DNA of 64,000 nucleotides from Acidicapsa dinghuensis (lineage in GTDB: Bacteria > Acidobacteriota > Terriglobia > Terriglobales > Acidobacteriaceae). Location: the NCBI RefSeq assembly GCF_025685685.1, contig NZ_JAGSYH010000006.1:124001-188000 (forward strand), in the 5' to 3' direction. A program made the position numbers and the translations under genes. Below, one piece after another: positions 1 through 6,391 of this stretch (the stretch's first letter is position 1; each line of letters opens with the position of its first letter). Below the pieces are notes generated by a model. That model saw only the letters and a program-made list of their open reading frames with translations. It was not told the origin of the DNA and did no database searches.

Positions 1-1
1 T

Positions 2-412
2 GTGATGCAGGTGGAGGATGGTGCGGATATCGCCGGCATGGGAGGCCTGATGGGCACTGCGATGGCTGCGCGTGGATTTTCAGGAGCTGTGATTGATGGC
101 GGTGTGCGGGATATCCCGCAACTGAAGCGGATTGGATTTCCGGTGTATGCGACTGGGCCGGTGCCTTCGACTTCAGTGGGTCACTATCGCTTTGGCGGAA
201 GCAATGTTCCGATTGATTGCGATGGAGTGAAGGTAAATCCGAACGATATTATTGTGGCGGATCAGGATGGTGTGGTTGTGGTTCCACGAGAACATGCAGC
301 GGATGTGCTGGTGCGCGCACAGCAACTAGATAACAGCGAGCACTCCATGTATCCGTTTATCGAGAAGTACCGTTCTATCGTTGAAGCCGTGAAGAAGTTT
401 GGAAGAATATAG
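2..412 (+). CDS. RraA / HMG-CHA aldolase family protein, 5' end outside window
   Basis: The visible 136 residues match the C-terminal two thirds of the RraA-like fold (formerly annotated dimethylmenaquinone methyltransferase), which includes class II pyruvate aldolases such as 4-hydroxy-4-methyl-2-oxoglutarate aldolase. The family signature G-x20-R-D is present as Gly15, Arg36 and Asp37 of the visible part; the acidic residue often found three positions after Asp is Gln40 here. The true start lies upstream of the window, so an export signal cannot be judged. It is followed after 61 nt by a PLP enzyme on the same strand, which suggests a role in cleaving a 2-oxo acid made by that cluster. Family is fairly sure; the substrate is unknown. 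Confidence 0.8.
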   Translation: MMQVEDGADIAGMGGLMGTAMAARGFSGAVIDGGVRDIPQLKRIGFPVYATGPVPSTSVGHYRFGGSNVPIDCDGVKVNPNDIIVADQDGVVVVPREHAADVLVRAQQLDNSEHSMYPFIEKYRSIVEAVKKFGRI

Positions 413-473
413 AGCTGCAAAGATTAGATTGGGAAGGTGGCGCGCAGGATGCTTGCGCAAGGAGGCTTGAGGC

Positions 474-1754
474 GTGGGTATGTTTGGGAATGGTGAGCAA
501 AGCCCGTTAACGCGCAGACGGTTTCTAGGCTGGTCGCAAGGACTGATGGCGGCGGTGAGTGCGGCGCCATGGATGAGCGCGCGCGCGGAGACAGAGCCTG
601 AGCATCCTGCTGAGAACGAGGACTACTACGACAAGCTGGGCATCGACAAGATCATCAATGCTGCTGGAACATACACGTATTTGACGGCTGCTGTGATGCC
701 GCCTGAGGTGCAACGGGCTGTGGCGAAAGCGGCGCTGCATCCGGTTGTATTGAAAGATCTACAGAAGGCTTCGGGTGAGTATCTGGCAAAGAAGCTTCGT
801 TGTGAGGCAGCGTTGGTGTCCTCTGGAGCGTCTGCAGCGCTGACGCTGGCGACAGCCGCCTGCGTTGCCTCGGCGAATAATTTGAAGCCCGAGCAAATTC
901 CGCAGGAAGTGGGCGGGATGAAGAACGAGGTCATCGTTCAGAAGGCACACCGATACGAGTATGACCACGCGATGCAGTTGTGCGGAGTGCGCATTGTGGA
1001 AGTGGTGACGGTGGAGGACTATCGCAACGCGTTCACGCGGAAGACAGTCATGACGAACTTCTTCAATGCCGCTGAGGCGGGAGAGATCGATCGCAAGACA
1101 TGGCTTAATATTGCGCATCAGCACGGGGTGCCTTGTCATCTGGATGCGGCGGCGGATATGCCTCCGGTGGAGAATCTGTGGAAGTACACGGAGATGGGAT
1201 TTGATCTGGTGTGCTTCTCGGGCGGTAAGGGAATTCGCGGACCGCAGAATGCGGGGCTTCTTCTGGGGAGGAAGAAGCTGATCGATCTTGCGGTACAAAA
1301 TGACAATCCAAACTCCGATGCGGTCGGCCGCGGCATGAAGGTGGCGAAAGAGCAGATTGTCGGTATGGTGGCTGCAGTGGACTGGCTGCTCAGCCGCGAT
1401 GAAGCGGCAGATCAGGCTGAATATCGGCGACGGGCTGATGTGATTGCCGCAGCGGTGAAAAATGTGCCGACGATGAAGAGTGAAATCTTTGTACCTGAAA
1501 TTGCAAATCATGTTCCACATCTGATCCTGGCATACGATCCGGCAGTGGTGGGCATTAGTCCGACGGAAGTGCAGAAGAAGTTGCAGGCAGAAAAGCCTCG
1601 AATCGAACTGAATCCTGCGACAGGTTCGACAGGACGTCTGGGAACGCACTCGAATGAGAATACGATTGTGGTGGGCACGTGGATGCTGCAGCCGGGTGAG
1701 GCGGAGATTGTTGGCCGCAGGCTGCGAGAAGTATTGACGCATCCCCGAGCGTAG
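474..1754 (+). CDS. Tat-exported SelA/DgaE-like PLP-dependent enzyme (copy 1)
   Basis: A 426-residue fold-type I PLP enzyme of the SelA-like group that includes D-glucosaminate-6-phosphate ammonia-lyase (DgaE). The N-terminus carries a twin-arginine signal (TRRRFLGW, residues 13-20) followed by an Ala-rich hydrophobic stretch, so the folded, cofactor-loaded enzyme is probably sent to the periplasm. The PLP lysine is Lys252 in SGGKGIRGPQ. The GTG start at 474 is chosen because GGAGG lies 8 nt upstream (461-465); an ATG at 480 would be too far from it. It is not expected to be a true selenocysteine synthase: it is exported and has no selB beside it. Likely chemistry is elimination of ammonia or water from an amino acid or amino sugar acid (inference). 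A paralogue lies at 2381. Confidence 0.85.
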   Translation: MGMFGNGEQSPLTRRRFLGWSQGLMAAVSAAPWMSARAETEPEHPAENEDYYDKLGIDKIINAAGTYTYLTAAVMPPEVQRAVAKAALHPVVLKDLQKASGEYLAKKLRCEAALVSSGASAALTLATAACVASANNLKPEQIPQEVGGMKNEVIVQKAHRYEYDHAMQLCGVRIVEVVTVEDYRNAFTRKTVMTNFFNAAEAGEIDRKTWLNIAHQHGVPCHLDAAADMPPVENLWKYTEMGFDLVCFSGGKGIRGPQNAGLLLGRKKLIDLAVQNDNPNSDAVGRGMKVAKEQIVGMVAAVDWLLSRDEAADQAEYRRRADVIAAAVKNVPTMKSEIFVPEIANHVPHLILAYDPAVVGISPTEVQKKLQAEKPRIELNPATGSTGRLGTHSNENTIVVGTWMLQPGEAEIVGRRLREVLTHPRA

Positions 1755-1798
1755 ATAATTTGGCGAGATCAACTCGAACCGGCATAAGGAGCCATAGG

Positions 1799-2284
1799 AT
1801 GCAGAAGCAATCGCGCAGAAATCTTTTGAAGAATGCAGCAACGGCAGCGGTAGCAGTAACGGGCGTGGCAATGGCAAGCAGTGCGGCTGAGGCACAGGTA
1901 ACTGGAGCTTTGGAGAAAAAGTCTTATCCTGCTACTCCGAATGCGGATAACAAGAAGGGTGAGCCGCCTCTGTTTTCGAGCGTGGTCTCTTACGGCAATC
2001 TTGTATTTCTGGCTGGCGTTGGCGCGCACTTCCAGGGAACAATCGAAGAGCACACGAAGCATGTACTGGATGAGCTGGAGCAGAACCTGATTCGTGCGGG
2101 GTCGTCGATGGATAAGGTGCTGAAGGTGAACGTATATCTGAATGACATCAAGGACTGGGAACGGATGAACACGGTTTACAAGGGCCGCTGGGGTGCGGTT
2201 CCGCCAGTTCGAACGACGGTGGCTCCAGCGGGAGGTATTCCGGGCAATTCATTGGTAGAAATCGAACTGATCGCTTACAAGTAG
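1799..2284 (+). CDS. Tat-exported RidA/YjgF/UK114-like enamine/imine deaminase
   Basis: A 161-residue protein: a RidA-like domain behind an N-terminal twin-arginine signal (SRRNLLK, residues 5-11, then an Ala/Val-rich segment ending near AEAQ). RidA proteins hydrolyse reactive enamine/imine intermediates released by PLP enzymes; the conserved Arg is visible in the segment PPVRTTVAPAG. The start is ATG 1799 with AAGGA 8 nt upstream; the open frame runs back to a TTG at 1760 but has no ribosome site there. RidA is normally cytoplasmic, so an exported copy placed between two exported PLP enzymes suggests it cleans up their intermediates in the same compartment. The family call is strong; the specific substrate is unknown. 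Confidence 0.85.
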   Translation: MQKQSRRNLLKNAATAAVAVTGVAMASSAAEAQVTGALEKKSYPATPNADNKKGEPPLFSSVVSYGNLVFLAGVGAHFQGTIEEHTKHVLDELEQNLIRAGSSMDKVLKVNVYLNDIKDWERMNTVYKGRWGAVPPVRTTVAPAGGIPGNSLVEIELIAYK

Positions 2285-2380
2285 GTACTAAAAAGTAGAT
2301 CGGGGCAGGCCCTCCGCTCAAGCCTGGCGGCAGGATGACGCAACGCACGTTGATTCATACGAGAGAAAATCGGGAGAAAT

Positions 2381-3991
2381 ATGTCAAAGATTGGCGCCAG
2401 GCTATGGTCGCGCAGGCAGTTGTTGAAGAGTTCAGGAGTCATCTCCGCCGTGGGGGCCGCGGCGACGCTTGCACCGGGGACGGCGAGCGCGGCCGTAAAT
2501 TCTGCGGAAGGCAGCGGCGTGCTGAGGCATCAGGGAACGGATGCGCATAATCTTTTCACTGAGATTGGTGTGCGGCCTCTCTTGAATGCGCGCGGTACGT
2601 ACACCATCATCAGCGGGTCGCGCTCGCTGCCGGAAGTGAAGCAGGCGATGTACGACGCGTCGTTTTATTTTGTTCATCTGGACGAGATGATGGATGGCAT
2701 CGGCAAAGAGCTGGGCCGACTAACGGGAGCCGAGTGGGGGATTGCGACGACAGGATGCGAAGCTGCCATCGCGCTGGCGACGGTAGCGTGCATCGCGGGA
2801 ACGAATATCGAAAAATGCCAGGCACTTCCTTACATCGAACAGAAAAAGGAAGTCATCATTCCCCATCATTCCCGCAATCCGTATGACATGGGCATTCGCA
2901 TGACGGGCGCGGAACTGGTGGAAGTAGCGTCGGAGGAAGAACTGCGAAGCAAGATATCCGACAGAACAGCGATGATTTACATTCTTTCGAGCCCCGCGGC
3001 GGAGAAGGGACCGCTGGGCATTCCAAATATCTGCTCGATTGCGAAAGAGAAGGGGATCCCGGTATTTGTGGACGCGGCTGCGGAGGAGCCTCTGTCGCCG
3101 AACATTCATATTCAGCATGGCGCGACGCTGGTGGGATACTCGGGCGGCAAGTGCATGCGCGGGCCTCAATCATCGGGCATGCTGATTGGGCAGAAGGATC
3201 TGTGTCAGTCAGCGTACTATCAGGCCGCTCCGCATCATTGTTATGGCCGCGCTTACAAATGCAGCAAAGAAGAGGCGATGGGGCTGCTGGCTGCGGTTCG
3301 ACAGTGGTATAAACGCGACCACGAAGCCGAGCAGAAGATGTGGCTTTCGTGGCTTCAGCATATCGAGGGGAGTGTGAAAGGCTTGCCGTCGGTGAAGACC
3401 GAGTACGAGCAGCCAGAGGATCTATCGAACCGCGCGCCTACGTTGAAGATCAGCTGGGATGCGAATCAGCTGAAGATTACAGGCACGGAACTGGTGGCGA
3501 AGCTGGATGCGGGTACGCCGCGCATTCTTGTGCTTGGTGGCGGTGGAGTGCGGCCGAACAGGATGGAGAGTTCGATCGGGATCATGCCGTACATGATGGA
3601 TCCAGGCGAAGACAAGATTGTGGCCGATGCAATTTATGAGGGGCTCACGAAGCCAGGACATTATGAGAGTCCTGTGGTTCCGAGTGGAGAGCCTGCAGAA
3701 CTTGAGGGCAAGTGGGCTGTGACGATTCACTATTTGCGAGGGAAAGGCGAGCAGCAGTTCACTCTTTCGCGGTCGGGGAATGAAATAACCGGCAAGCATG
3801 ATGGCGAGATCTACCACGCCGATTTGAAAGGCATGGTGCATGCGACGCAGGTGGAACTGCACAGTGTGATGGCTGTGAGCGGCAACGTGATTCCGTGGAC
3901 CTTCAAGGGTGAGGTGCAAGGAAATTCGATGTCGGGATCGGTGCACATGGGCGAGTACGGGGAAGCGAAGTGGGAAGCCACGCGCGTTTGA
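2381..3991 (+). CDS. Tat-exported SelA/DgaE-like PLP enzyme with extra C-terminal domain (copy 2)
   Basis: A 536-residue paralogue of the gene at 474. The twin-arginine signal is SRRQLLK near residue 10, followed by a long Ala/Gly hydrophobic stretch. The PLP lysine is Lys257 in SGGKCMRGPQ. It is about 110 residues longer than copy 1: after roughly residue 425 there is an added beta-rich module beginning ELEGKWAVTIHY, with alternating polar/hydrophobic strands and Gly turns, resembling small beta-sandwich or lipocalin-like add-on domains of exported enzymes (inference). It lies 96 nt after the RidA gene and 118 nt before the amidohydrolase, all on one strand. Copies 1 and 2 differ clearly in sequence, so they probably act on different substrates or form a heteromer. 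Confidence 0.82.
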   Translation: MSKIGARLWSRRQLLKSSGVISAVGAAATLAPGTASAAVNSAEGSGVLRHQGTDAHNLFTEIGVRPLLNARGTYTIISGSRSLPEVKQAMYDASFYFVHLDEMMDGIGKELGRLTGAEWGIATTGCEAAIALATVACIAGTNIEKCQALPYIEQKKEVIIPHHSRNPYDMGIRMTGAELVEVASEEELRSKISDRTAMIYILSSPAAEKGPLGIPNICSIAKEKGIPVFVDAAAEEPLSPNIHIQHGATLVGYSGGKCMRGPQSSGMLIGQKDLCQSAYYQAAPHHCYGRAYKCSKEEAMGLLAAVRQWYKRDHEAEQKMWLSWLQHIEGSVKGLPSVKTEYEQPEDLSNRAPTLKISWDANQLKITGTELVAKLDAGTPRILVLGGGGVRPNRMESSIGIMPYMMDPGEDKIVADAIYEGLTKPGHYESPVVPSGEPAELEGKWAVTIHYLRGKGEQQFTLSRSGNEITGKHDGEIYHADLKGMVHATQVELHSVMAVSGNVIPWTFKGEVQGNSMSGSVHMGEYGEAKWEATRV

Positions 3992-4109
3992 TCGAGTGAC
4001 AGTGAGTTCTCGCTGACAAACGAAAACCGGCAGATAAGGCGCTTGCAGGTAACGAGGGGCGCGGAACAAGCGCGATACATGAGGTGTTTTGCGCTTTTTG
4101 AGGAGCAGT

Positions 4110-5492
4110 ATGAGTATCTTTATCTTCAGGAACAATCGTCTTCGTCTGGCAATGGCGGCATTTGCATTGCTTGCGCTGACAGCGGTAAACGCGGGCGCCC
4201 AGGAAGGTACAGCGCCGAGACCAGCAAATTTGCCCTCGTACGATCTCATCCTGCAGGGTGGCCATGTGCTGGATAACAAGAACCACGTCGATGGCATTTT
4301 TGACGTTGCTATTAAAGACGGCAAAATTGCCAAGGTGGCGCCACATATTGCTTCTTCTGACGCATTGAAGACGGTGGATGCGAAAGGGCTGTATGTGACG
4401 CCGGGGCTGATCGACATCCACGTGCATGTGTACAACGGCACTGGCGAGCGCAACTCGTACGCCGGTGATTTAAGCGTGCCTCCGGATGGGTTTACATTCC
4501 GCGTAGGCGTGACTACGGTGGTGGATGCGGGCTGCTCTGGATGGAAGAACTTTGAAGACTTCAAGCAGCGCATCATCGATCGCTCGAAGACACGCGTCTT
4601 TGCACTGTTAAACATTGTTGGATCGGGCATGCGCGGGCCGAAGTTTGAGAACAACACGGCTGACATGGATGGCGAAGCGACGGCTGCGATGGCGTTGAAA
4701 TATCCGGATACGGTCGTGGGTATCAAAACCGCGCATTATGCCGGGCCGGATTGGACGCCGGTGGAGCAGGCAGTGATTGCAGGGACGAAGGCCAATATTC
4801 CGGTGATGGTGGACTTTGGGGAAAATCATCCGGATACGCGGCCACTCTATGACCTGCTGACGAAAAAATTGCGGCCCGGCGACATCTACACGCACATGTA
4901 TTCGGGACTGCGGAATGAGCAGGACCCAGATACGCTGGGGCCAAGCAAGGCGTTCATCGAGGGCCGCAAACGCGGCATCTATTTCGATGTGGGACATGGT
5001 GGCGGCAGTTTCAAGTGGTCACTGGCGGTGCCGATGATCAAGGATGGATTTATTCCTGATTCGATCTCGACCGACCTGCATGTGGGCAGCATGAACAGCG
5101 CCATGAAGGATGAGCTGAATACGGCGGACAAGATTCTCGCGTTGGGCGTGCCTTTGAAAGAAGTGGTTACAGAGATGACGTCGCATCCAGCGAAGGAGAT
5201 CAAGCATGAGGAGCTGGGAAATCTTTCGGAGGGAGCGATTGCCGACGTTGCGGTGCTGCGTGTGGAGAAGGGCAACTTCGGGTTTACTGACATGGTGAAC
5301 CTGCGTCACGAGGGATCAGAGAGACTGATCTGCGAACTGACAATCAAGGGTGGTAAGGTGGTCTATGATCTGAACGGGATCAGCTCCGACGCGTGGAATC
5401 AGCCACCAGGTAAATGGGCCAGCGAAGCGTGGCGCTATACATCGTTTGTGCCTACGCCGCATCGAAATCATGCAGCCGAAGAGGCTCACTGA
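4110..5492 (+). CDS. exported amidohydrolase/deacetylase-family metallohydrolase
   Basis: A 460-residue member of the dihydroorotase-like amidohydrolase superfamily. The N-terminus is a Sec-type signal (RNNRLR, then an Ala/Leu core, ending NAGAQ). The metal-binding HxH is His104/His106 in DIHVHV; a candidate carboxylated lysine is Lys206 in GIKTAHY; later His and Asp ligands are plausible in GDIYTHMYSG and STDLHVGS. The ATG at 4110 is preferred because AGGAG lies at 4101-4105; the frame opens upstream at a TTG (4089) without support. Relatives of this subgroup are often encoded next to DgaE/SelA-like PLP enzymes, as here. It probably releases an amine substrate (N-acyl or cyclic amide hydrolysis) for the neighbouring PLP enzymes; the actual substrate is not known. 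Confidence 0.82.
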   Translation: MSIFIFRNNRLRLAMAAFALLALTAVNAGAQEGTAPRPANLPSYDLILQGGHVLDNKNHVDGIFDVAIKDGKIAKVAPHIASSDALKTVDAKGLYVTPGLIDIHVHVYNGTGERNSYAGDLSVPPDGFTFRVGVTTVVDAGCSGWKNFEDFKQRIIDRSKTRVFALLNIVGSGMRGPKFENNTADMDGEATAAMALKYPDTVVGIKTAHYAGPDWTPVEQAVIAGTKANIPVMVDFGENHPDTRPLYDLLTKKLRPGDIYTHMYSGLRNEQDPDTLGPSKAFIEGRKRGIYFDVGHGGGSFKWSLAVPMIKDGFIPDSISTDLHVGSMNSAMKDELNTADKILALGVPLKEVVTEMTSHPAKEIKHEELGNLSEGAIADVAVLRVEKGNFGFTDMVNLRHEGSERLICELTIKGGKVVYDLNGISSDAWNQPPGKWASEAWRYTSFVPTPHRNHAAEEAH

Positions 5493-5560
5493 GCACACGT
5501 AGCTATAAGGCAATCGCGCCGACTGGCTGCCGGCAGGGCTGGCGTGGCAGTATTGAGCCC

Positions 5561-6391
5561 ATGAGTGATTTCATAACGGCTCGTCACGCGAATCTGGCTT
5601 CGCTCGCGAGTGTGGCCACCGGTGCGATTCTACTGACGGTTGCAAGTCCCTTGCTCGCTGGGCCGGGGCCGATCGCGAACACCGCTTTCGACGAATATGC
5701 GCAACAAGTAGAAGGCCGGTTGGTGATAGAGCATCGAGCGGCTACGACGTTTTTGGTTGTGAATACAGGTGACGAAGAAGCTCGGCTTCGTCACGGAGAA
5801 ATGGTCGTAGAACGTCTCACTCCATCAAAAGAAATCCCCGATGCAATGCTGAATGATTGGCGTGGCACAGCCTTTGTTTCGGGCGCTACGGTGGCGGATT
5901 TCGAGCGGGTGATGCGCGACCTGGATGCCTATACAAAAACTTTCGCGCCCGAAGTTTTGCGTAGCCAGATGCTCTCGGCAAGTGGCGATGGGATGCGCAC
6001 ACGTATGCGTGTGCGGCAGCATCACGTAATCACTGTAGTGATGGATACCGATTACGATGTGCGCTTTGGCAGGCTCGACTCCAGACACGGCGATTGCGCG
6101 TCCACCAGTACGCGCATCGCTGAGATCGATTCGCCTGGAACCGCGAAAGAACGCGAACTGTCTTCAGGCGAAGAGCACGGTTTTCTATGGAGGCTTAACT
6201 CCTACTGGAGCTACGAGGAGCGTGATGGCGGGCTCTACATGCAAATCGAAGCGATATCGCTGACGCGCGCCGTACCACACGGCCTGGGCTGGGTGGTCGG
6301 GCCGTATGTGGACAGCATTCCACGCGAGTCGCTCGAGTTTACCCTGCAAGCCATGCGAACAGCGCTGAGTCGTCCGCATGGCAAAGTGTGA
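5561..6391 (+). CDS. exported protein of unknown function
   Basis: A 276-residue protein starting at ATG 5561, with a hydrophobic N-terminal segment (about residues 10-32) that looks like a signal peptide or anchor. I do not recognise a named family. The C-terminal half, with an aromatic-rich strand (LNSYWSYEERDGG), ISLTRAVPHGLGW and IPRESLEFTLQAMR, resembles the end of helix-grip (SRPBCC-like) folds, and similar secreted proteins are known in Acidobacteriota; that fold assignment is inference. It lies 68 nt after the amidohydrolase on the same strand, so it may be co-transcribed, and is followed by the M61 peptidase after a 143-nt structured leader. The open frame extends upstream of 5561 but overlaps the previous gene and is not convincing. 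Confidence 0.65.
   Translation: MSDFITARHANLASLASVATGAILLTVASPLLAGPGPIANTAFDEYAQQVEGRLVIEHRAATTFLVVNTGDEEARLRHGEMVVERLTPSKEIPDAMLNDWRGTAFVSGATVADFERVMRDLDAYTKTFAPEVLRSQMLSASGDGMRTRMRVRQHHVITVVMDTDYDVRFGRLDSRHGDCASTSTRIAEIDSPGTAKERELSSGEEHGFLWRLNSYWSYEERDGGLYMQIEAISLTRAVPHGLGWVVGPYVDSIPRESLEFTLQAMRTALSRPHGKV

Follow-up and report, generated by a model that had tools for sequence, protein, structure and literature searches.

Introduction

RidA usually counts as a protein that protects the cytoplasm from reactive enamines, and chemistry that depends on pyridoxal 5'-phosphate (PLP) is known outside the cytoplasm from few cases such as PvdN, which pseudomonads export by the twin-arginine translocation (Tat) system. 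Here we describe a cluster of five genes at the beginning of a 64,000-nucleotide stretch of the Acidicapsa dinghuensis genome (G000:C14:124001-188000, in the following "the window"; the genome has 6.17 Mb and is 98.9% complete), which encodes an RraA-like protein, two SelA/DgaE-like PLP enzymes (PLP1 and PLP2), a RidA-family protein and an amidohydrolase, all of which look exported, whereas their relatives elsewhere remain in the cytoplasm. The closest described system is the Ong pathway of Pseudoalteromonas prydzensis (OngB, OngC, OngD and KdgK), in which the deacetylase OngB, the PLP-dependent deaminase OngC and the RidA protein OngD are each essential for growth on N-acetylglucosaminate; OngB deacetylates this compound, OngC converts the deacetylated product into 2-keto-3-deoxygluconate and ammonia, the role of OngD is not known, and for OngB and OngC a cytoplasmic location is predicted (PMC9537276). 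The likeness to our locus lies in the clustering of a deacylase, a PLP deaminase and a RidA with TonB-dependent receptors; OngB and OngC are described as resembling D-aminoacylases and D-amino-acid deaminases (PMC9537276), whereas the acidobacterial set has export signals, SelA-like PLP enzymes and an RraA-like protein.

Two further systems share traits with the locus. PvdN and Cap15 belong to the oxygen-using PLP enzymes, and PvdN is likewise periplasmic (PMC7497351), but it is a single enzyme of pyoverdine maturation and not part of an exported deamination cluster. In Gluconacetobacter, the operon for an L-amino-acid oxidase (LAAO), a cytochrome c and a RidA unites the RidA gene with a deaminating enzyme for which a Tat signal is predicted, but the LAAO is a flavin amino-acid oxidase and not a PLP enzyme, and the text consulted mentions no export signal of the RidA (PMC5053998). 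In the open-licence literature searched, we found no account of the cluster described here, nor of an exported or periplasmic RidA. Neither the chemistry nor the protein families are new; what we did not meet in that literature is their cellular compartment here, the complete set of exported enzymes and the changed site of the amidohydrolase.

Export signals at the locus

The original prediction, made from the window alone, had read Tat signals in both PLP enzymes and in the RidA and a Sec signal in the amidohydrolase, and the respective open reading frames and motifs are indeed present. PLP1 begins with LTRRRFLGWSQ and PLP2 with WSRRQLLK; the RidA motif is QSRRNLLK, the better start of this protein being ATG 1799 (as listed, its frame begins with TTG 1760), and the amidohydrolase, with ATG 4110 as its better start, has a Sec-type leader that ends in LLALTAVNAGAQ. 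The RraA-like frame at 2-412 represents only the 3' part of a gene that starts 422 bases before the window (L025:11579-12412, 277 residues). The whole product also starts with a hydrophobic segment, and thus five proteins, not the four first proposed, look exported as judged from their N-termini. All signals were scored by motif and by eye. Tat-like N-termini occur in 4 of the 48 mechanically called genes of the window, and three of these belong to PLP1, RidA and PLP2; as the motifs are also conserved, chance motifs could be ruled out.

Conservation across Acidobacteriota

Matching loci in named relatives come from Acidobacteriaceae, e.g. Edaphobacter, Granulicella and Bryocella. When these loci on named contigs are taken together with our own, the twin-arginine pair (RR) is found in 11/11 PLP1, 14/14 RidA and 16/16 PLP2 proteins, and hydrophobic leaders were seen by eye in 16/16 amidohydrolases and 13/13 RraA-like proteins. 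Of 396 genomes surveyed in the phylum, 40 gave a PLP2 match (E ≤ 1e-40), with at most 4 candidates per genome scored in the first pass, and 29 gave a RidA match (E ≤ 1e-25). Within the own family, 15 genomes including ours have a PLP2 match and at least 20 others have no match, so the cluster is patchy there.

The PLP2 set on which the following counts are based comprises 47 distinct full-length acidobacterial proteins, 28 of them close (≥ 55% identity) and 19 distant, drawn from 13 families as labelled and from the named relatives. Left out were duplicates, i.e. loci sharing the last 300 PLP2 residues, the full-length match G325:C1:1940673, and RidA matches of at most 45% identity (L104, L106 and L110, with 32-36%), of which those of L104 and L106 are part of longer proteins that show no RR signal where one would be expected. 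Counted as a motif alone, with no hydrophobicity criterion, RR is present in all 47 PLP2 proteins (28/28 close, 19/19 distant), and the 33 neighbouring RidA proteins all have it as well (24/24 at close and 9/9 at distant loci). At 24/28 close and 7/19 distant loci, PLP2 has both an amidohydrolase and a RidA gene no more than 10 kb away, and RidA is found at 9/19 distant loci; several of the 19 are interrupted by contig ends. The expectation that the cluster is conserved in related genomes with its signals and its gene order was thereby borne out. PLP2 appears to be the core enzyme, as PLP1 is missing from the related clusters L011, L014 and L018; PLP2 occurs by itself in L020 and L023. Acidobacteriota contain further Tat-signalled SelA-like paralogues, as seen in a sample picked by similarity, and also a SelA-like protein without signal (L146) and one whose signal is unclear (L147).

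Enzyme families and active sites

PLP1 and PLP2 are 34% identical to each other, and among the NCBIfam models both come nearest to TIGR01437, the DgaE family of ammonia lyases; PLP1 in addition passes the SelA model PF03841 (27.8 bits, cut-off 22.8). The PLP lysine of PLP1 (K252, in FSGGK) and the aspartate of its DAAA motif are invariant in 11 sequences, and in PLP2 the PLP lysine K257 and the DAAA aspartate D231 are invariant in 16. Both are assigned to the SelA-like fold type I, PLP1 by sequence only (its model is poor, with a predicted local distance difference test score, pLDDT, of 52) and PLP2 by an AlphaFold model (pLDDT 74) that matches DgaE (7lc0), Cap15 (8t7j) and SelA. The additional C-terminal domain of PLP2 (about window:3686-3991) is predicted from the model to be all-beta, and a comparison of window:3686-3991 with Pfam gave no family match. 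A signal-less SelA-like protein of Sinorhizobium numidicum aligns across this domain too; it belongs to a cluster with asnB and methyltransferase genes.

The amidohydrolase passes NF006689 (418.1 bits, cut-off 371), and its nearest solved structures are 2ogj, 8wzy, 8je0 and 2ics. The 41/41 acidobacterial and 6/6 other sequences all retain the two His residues of the HxH motif, as well as the Lys, the His further on and the Asp. The His of the MVHVGE stretch, which we take to be a metal-binding position of the family, is Asp (MVDFGE) in 41/41 acidobacterial amidohydrolases, for only part of which export leaders were scored, and His in the 6/6 others and in Phyllobacterium. Because of this difference, the acidobacterial proteins form a branch of their own.

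RidA passes PF01042 (68 bits, cut-off 27.3) and misses TIGR00004, the model of the Rid family detoxifying hydrolases (58.9 versus 106.25 bits); R138, presumably the substrate-binding arginine, is invariant in 13 sequences. The whole RraA-like gene passes PF03737 (132.6 bits, cut-off 24.5) and misses the CHA aldolase equivalog TIGR02798 (93 versus 304.5 bits), and the R and D of its GGVRD motif are kept in 25/25 aligned sequences. Another RraA-like gene of the same genome (L169, G000:C10:153845-154348) has a Sec-like leader, so the export of RraA proteins may be widespread among these bacteria.

Relatives without export signals

As a comparison from outside Acidobacteriota, we took a sample of 11 plasmid-borne SelA-like relatives (Klebsiella, Enterococcus, Sinorhizobium B11, Sinorhizobium numidicum, Rhizobium acidisoli, R. 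leguminosarum, Phyllobacterium, Thalassospira, Caballeronia, Paraburkholderia and Haloarcula), and a Tat signal was found in 0/11. An amidohydrolase, a RidA, a DgaE-like gene and an ATP-binding cassette (ABC) importer occur together in 2/11, Sinorhizobium B11 and Phyllobacterium, and in Rhizobium acidisoli, R. leguminosarum and Thalassospira a RidA gene adjoins the PLP gene beside an ABC importer. The three enzyme types thus recur together as a cassette, of which there are forms with export signals and forms that lack them. In the two Alphaproteobacteria, the cassette resembles ours in having the same three types side by side, but it lacks signal peptides, its RidA differs in the N-terminal region, and the amidohydrolase His is kept. 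In Phyllobacterium, the cassette is split by a reverse-strand IclR gene, and NagA/NagB-type genes lie beside it. The rhizobial RidA-PLP pair (L149, L173) is located near allantoicase and ureidoglycine aminohydrolase genes, which hints at a nitrogen-scavenging setting.

DgaE-type operons show a more limited likeness: Klebsiella has an amidohydrolase of the same family together with DgaE, KDGP aldolase and a lactonase, and Enterococcus has a same-family amidohydrolase and DgaE. These operons differ by import through SFCGS/DUF43xx or phosphotransferase system (PTS)-type genes, by signal-less amidohydrolases and DgaE proteins, and by another aldolase family, and no RidA is among the genes of the stretches examined; the Klebsiella lactonase carries a leader, unlike its amidohydrolase and DgaE. 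In Haloarcula, the PLP gene lies beside a carbohydrate ABC importer with no amidohydrolase or RidA annotated there, in the unannotated Caballeronia and Paraburkholderia stretches tblastn found the PLP gene only, and no partner gene was found for a RidA-like match in Gemmatirosa. The trio is not in the annotation of the amidohydrolase neighbourhoods of Thermomicrobium, Methylobacterium and Mesorhizobium, nor in that of the PLP2-like neighbourhood of Sinorhizobium numidicum, so the families also serve other contexts.

The logic of the Ong pathway (PMC9537276) is matched by the proposed chain of amidohydrolase, PLP enzyme and RidA. An oxidation of chitin driven by lytic polysaccharide monooxygenases (LPMOs), as in Ong, is unsupported, since the own genome, at its 98.9% completeness, gave no LPMO_10 match at E values up to 0.001. 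We also rejected the idea that the amidohydrolase and PLP enzymes of the cluster are the OngB and OngC of this genome, as there is a separate set of that type: adjacent D-serine-dehydratase-like, D-aminoacylase-like, RidA and GntP permease genes (L170:4905-9420, G000:C12), in which no Tat motif was seen. Judged by these gene families, this set is the Ong/D-amino-acid-type counterpart to the exported cluster.

Locus layout and genomic setting

All five genes lie on the plus strand in the order given in Table 1, with intergenic gaps of 61, 44, 96 and 118 bases. Upstream follow, in this order, genes for a transporter of the major facilitator superfamily (MFS), for a sensor kinase of the Reg_prop/Y_Y_Y kind, for a LuxR-type response regulator and for a CarboxypepD_reg/outer-membrane-barrel receptor. 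Of the transporter models, that for D-galactonate comes nearest to the MFS protein (241 bits). Divergent from its gene is a BBE flavin oxidase gene, followed after 17 bases by a gene for a lactonase-family protein, which is 7-bladed and has a Tat-like N-terminus; this pair lies 12-14 kb from PLP2 and therefore beyond the 10 kb neighbourhood limit. Within this limit, and with our own pair not counted, a lactonase was found at 13/28 and a BBE oxidase at 7/28 close PLP2 loci, and pyrroloquinoline quinone (PQQ) dehydrogenases occur at 3/19 distant loci. A search for repeats in window 1-5600 gave nothing of note.

Table 1. Positions and main sequence features of the clustered genes in the window
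Feature	Position	Strand	Basis
RraA-like (HMG/CHA-aldolase superfamily), 3' part	1..412	+	PF03737 132.6 bits (whole gene); R and D of GGVRD; N-terminal hydrophobic export/anchor segment
PLP1, SelA/DgaE-like PLP enzyme with Tat signal	474..1754	+	TIGR01437 161.4 bits; PF03841 27.8 bits; PLP lysine in FSGGK
RidA/Rid-family protein with Tat signal SRRNLLK	1799..2284	+	PF01042 68 bits; R138
PLP2, SelA/DgaE-like PLP enzyme with Tat signal and extra C-terminal domain	2381..3991	+	TIGR01437 154.7 bits; K257, D231; AlphaFold model
Amidohydrolase/deacetylase-family metallohydrolase with Sec signal	4110..5492	+	NF006689 418.1 bits; Asp in MVDFGE versus MVHVGE

Proposed pathway

From the gene order, the signals and the neighbouring regulatory and transport genes, we infer a catabolic module in the envelope, i.e. 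in the periplasm, for an amino-sugar acid that carries an N-acyl group, for instance an N-acetyl-hexosaminate, and we put this forward tentatively, as the case for the whole scheme is appreciable but a little short of balanced. The receptor would take up a glycan fragment through the outer membrane, and the BBE oxidase together with the exported lactonase could convert its reducing end into an aldonic acid. The amidohydrolase would then cleave off the N-acyl group, PLP2 would eliminate ammonia from the resulting 2-amino-aldonate, with PLP1 as a possible second specificity, and RidA would hydrolyse the enamine or imine released outside the cytoplasm. The 2-keto-3-deoxy acid product may finally be imported by the MFS transporter or be cleaved by the RraA-like protein acting as an aldolase. 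The set of partners suggests the order of deacylation, PLP-dependent elimination and imine hydrolysis, and an N-acyl amino-sugar acid is preferred as substrate because of the lactonase, BBE and PQQ neighbours, the Klebsiella lactonase and the aldonate-type MFS protein. The need to load PLP before export, in the cytoplasm, would explain the use of Tat rather than Sec; why RidA, which has no cofactor, should use Tat we can only guess, fast folding or export as a passenger in a complex being conceivable.

The more general proposition, for and against which we see about equal weight, is that Acidobacteriota may have moved into the envelope a whole pathway of amide hydrolysis, PLP-dependent elimination and imine hydrolysis by RidA, and with it the opening of the lactone and an aldolase, so that the reactive enamine/imine chemistry of amino-sugar acids and the RidA safeguard would lie outside the cytoplasm, with an amidohydrolase whose metal site has changed from His to Asp. 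The signals, the gene order and the co-occurrence speak for the exported pathway of the original prediction, but its description as complete was too strong: PLP1 is missing from three related clusters, and the neighbouring genes for a lactonase and a flavin oxidase point to steps that would come before.

Several observations weigh against the amino-sugar-acid scheme. Both PLP enzymes miss the cut-off of TIGR01437 (385.3 bits; PLP1 161.4, PLP2 154.7), and the equivalog model for D-glucosaminate-6-phosphate ammonia lyase (NF047797, cut-off 600) is also missed, with 129.4 bits for PLP1 and 133.1 for PLP2. The score of the MFS protein lies below the cut-off of its model (395), the N-terminus of the BBE oxidase shows no visible export signal, and no lactonase was found within 10 kb at 15/28 and no BBE oxidase at 21/28 close loci, some of which are incomplete. 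One or both partners are missing within 10 kb at 4/28 close loci, all four of which carry PLP2 alone (L020, L125, L126 and L127), and at 12/19 distant PLP2 loci. In the alignment to 2ogj and 8wzy, the Asp of the amidohydrolase stands opposite their His, so the solved relatives differ at this position.

Alternative explanations

The same set of exported enzymes could also act on N-acyl-D-amino acids, for example from peptidoglycan or racemised protein, with deacylation, deamination of a beta-hydroxy D-amino acid, clearance of the imine by RidA and import of the keto acid. Among its weaker structural matches, the amidohydrolase has D-aminoacylases (E about 1e-6), the distant locus L098 has an amino-acid permease gene divergent from PLP2, which would suit an amino-acid substrate, and the ABC importer of the rhizobial cassettes has no stated substrate. 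However, sugar-type neighbours are commoner, as the lactonase and BBE counts at the close loci, the aldonate-type MFS protein and the NagA/NagB-type genes of Phyllobacterium show, and our genome already has its separate D-aminoacylase-like/D-serine-dehydratase-like/RidA/GntP set, and we therefore regard this substrate class as unlikely, though worth keeping in view. A different chemistry would apply if the PLP enzymes, like Cap15, depended on O2 and served as oxidases or oxygenases in the envelope, where oxygen is present, with RidA clearing the imine product. Periplasmic PvdN and Cap15 are both listed as oxygen-using (PMC7497351). The PLP2 model superimposes on Cap15 (8t7j_B) with a Z score of 31.1 (root-mean-square deviation, rmsd, 3.4; 329 residues aligned) and on DgaE (7lc0_A) with 29.5 (rmsd 3.9; 339 aligned), which puts Cap15 ahead by 1.6 units, and PLP1 is nearer by sequence to Cap15 (E 4.4e-30) than to DgaE (4.6e-25). 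PLP2 in turn is nearer to DgaE both by sequence (5e-31 versus 1.6e-27) and in Foldseek, which ranks DgaE first with its model (E 6.7e-21 versus 3.6e-20), and DgaE-family proteins are accompanied elsewhere, too, by an amidohydrolase, a lactonase or a RidA. The structural comparison does not decide between a lyase and an oxidase; we regard oxygen-dependent chemistry as unlikely.

It is quite improbable that the exported proteins form no linear pathway at all, being instead envelope paralogues with separate substrates beside a receptor, or having a role in sensing or nitrogen scavenging. The variable gene content, with PLP1 or all partners missing from some loci, and the additional Tat-signalled paralogues would fit such a collection, whereas the joint occurrence of amidohydrolase, PLP2 and RidA at most close and some distant loci, and its recurrence in two Alphaproteobacteria, speak for a functional unit. 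A last alternative is that the N-termini are not functional export signals and the proteins act in the cytoplasm. In its favour, RidA lacks any cofactor for which Tat would be required, the signals were read from the motif and by eye, and a stricter filter that adds hydrophobicity is failed by 7/47 PLP2 proteins (L020, L097, L102, L103, L105, L107 and L140) and by our own PLP1, which fails at a threshold of 1.2 and passes at 1.0. All seven nevertheless show RR near the start (RREW in L103 and L105), as does our PLP1. The invariance of RR in the acidobacterial PLP2 and neighbouring RidA proteins, compared with its absence from the 11 non-acidobacterial relatives, and the lack of a signal in the four readable ones of the five other RidA-family paralogues of the genome, make a cytoplasmic location highly improbable.

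Should the proposed envelope pathway for amino-sugar acids hold true, bacteria would be shown to use a set of several enzymes for PLP-dependent elimination within their envelope, a compartment in which PLP is not easily replaced. The reason for this location would then become testable: nitrogen could be obtained from a substrate that is not importable intact, or ammonia and imines could be kept from the cytoplasm. The pathway could also be a way for Acidobacteriota of soils to make use of amino sugars, and the signal-less alphaproteobacterial cassette offers a natural comparison set, with the same chemistry in the other compartment.

Further observations

The only other gene of the window with a Tat-like N-terminus encodes a beta-lactamase-family (PF00144) protein (window:22163-23914, minus strand). 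In two related loci (L021:18057-20989 and L022:15468-18260), a divergent Tat-signalled SelA-like gene is followed by a second amidohydrolase gene, near an MFS gene, and the module seems to be duplicated there.

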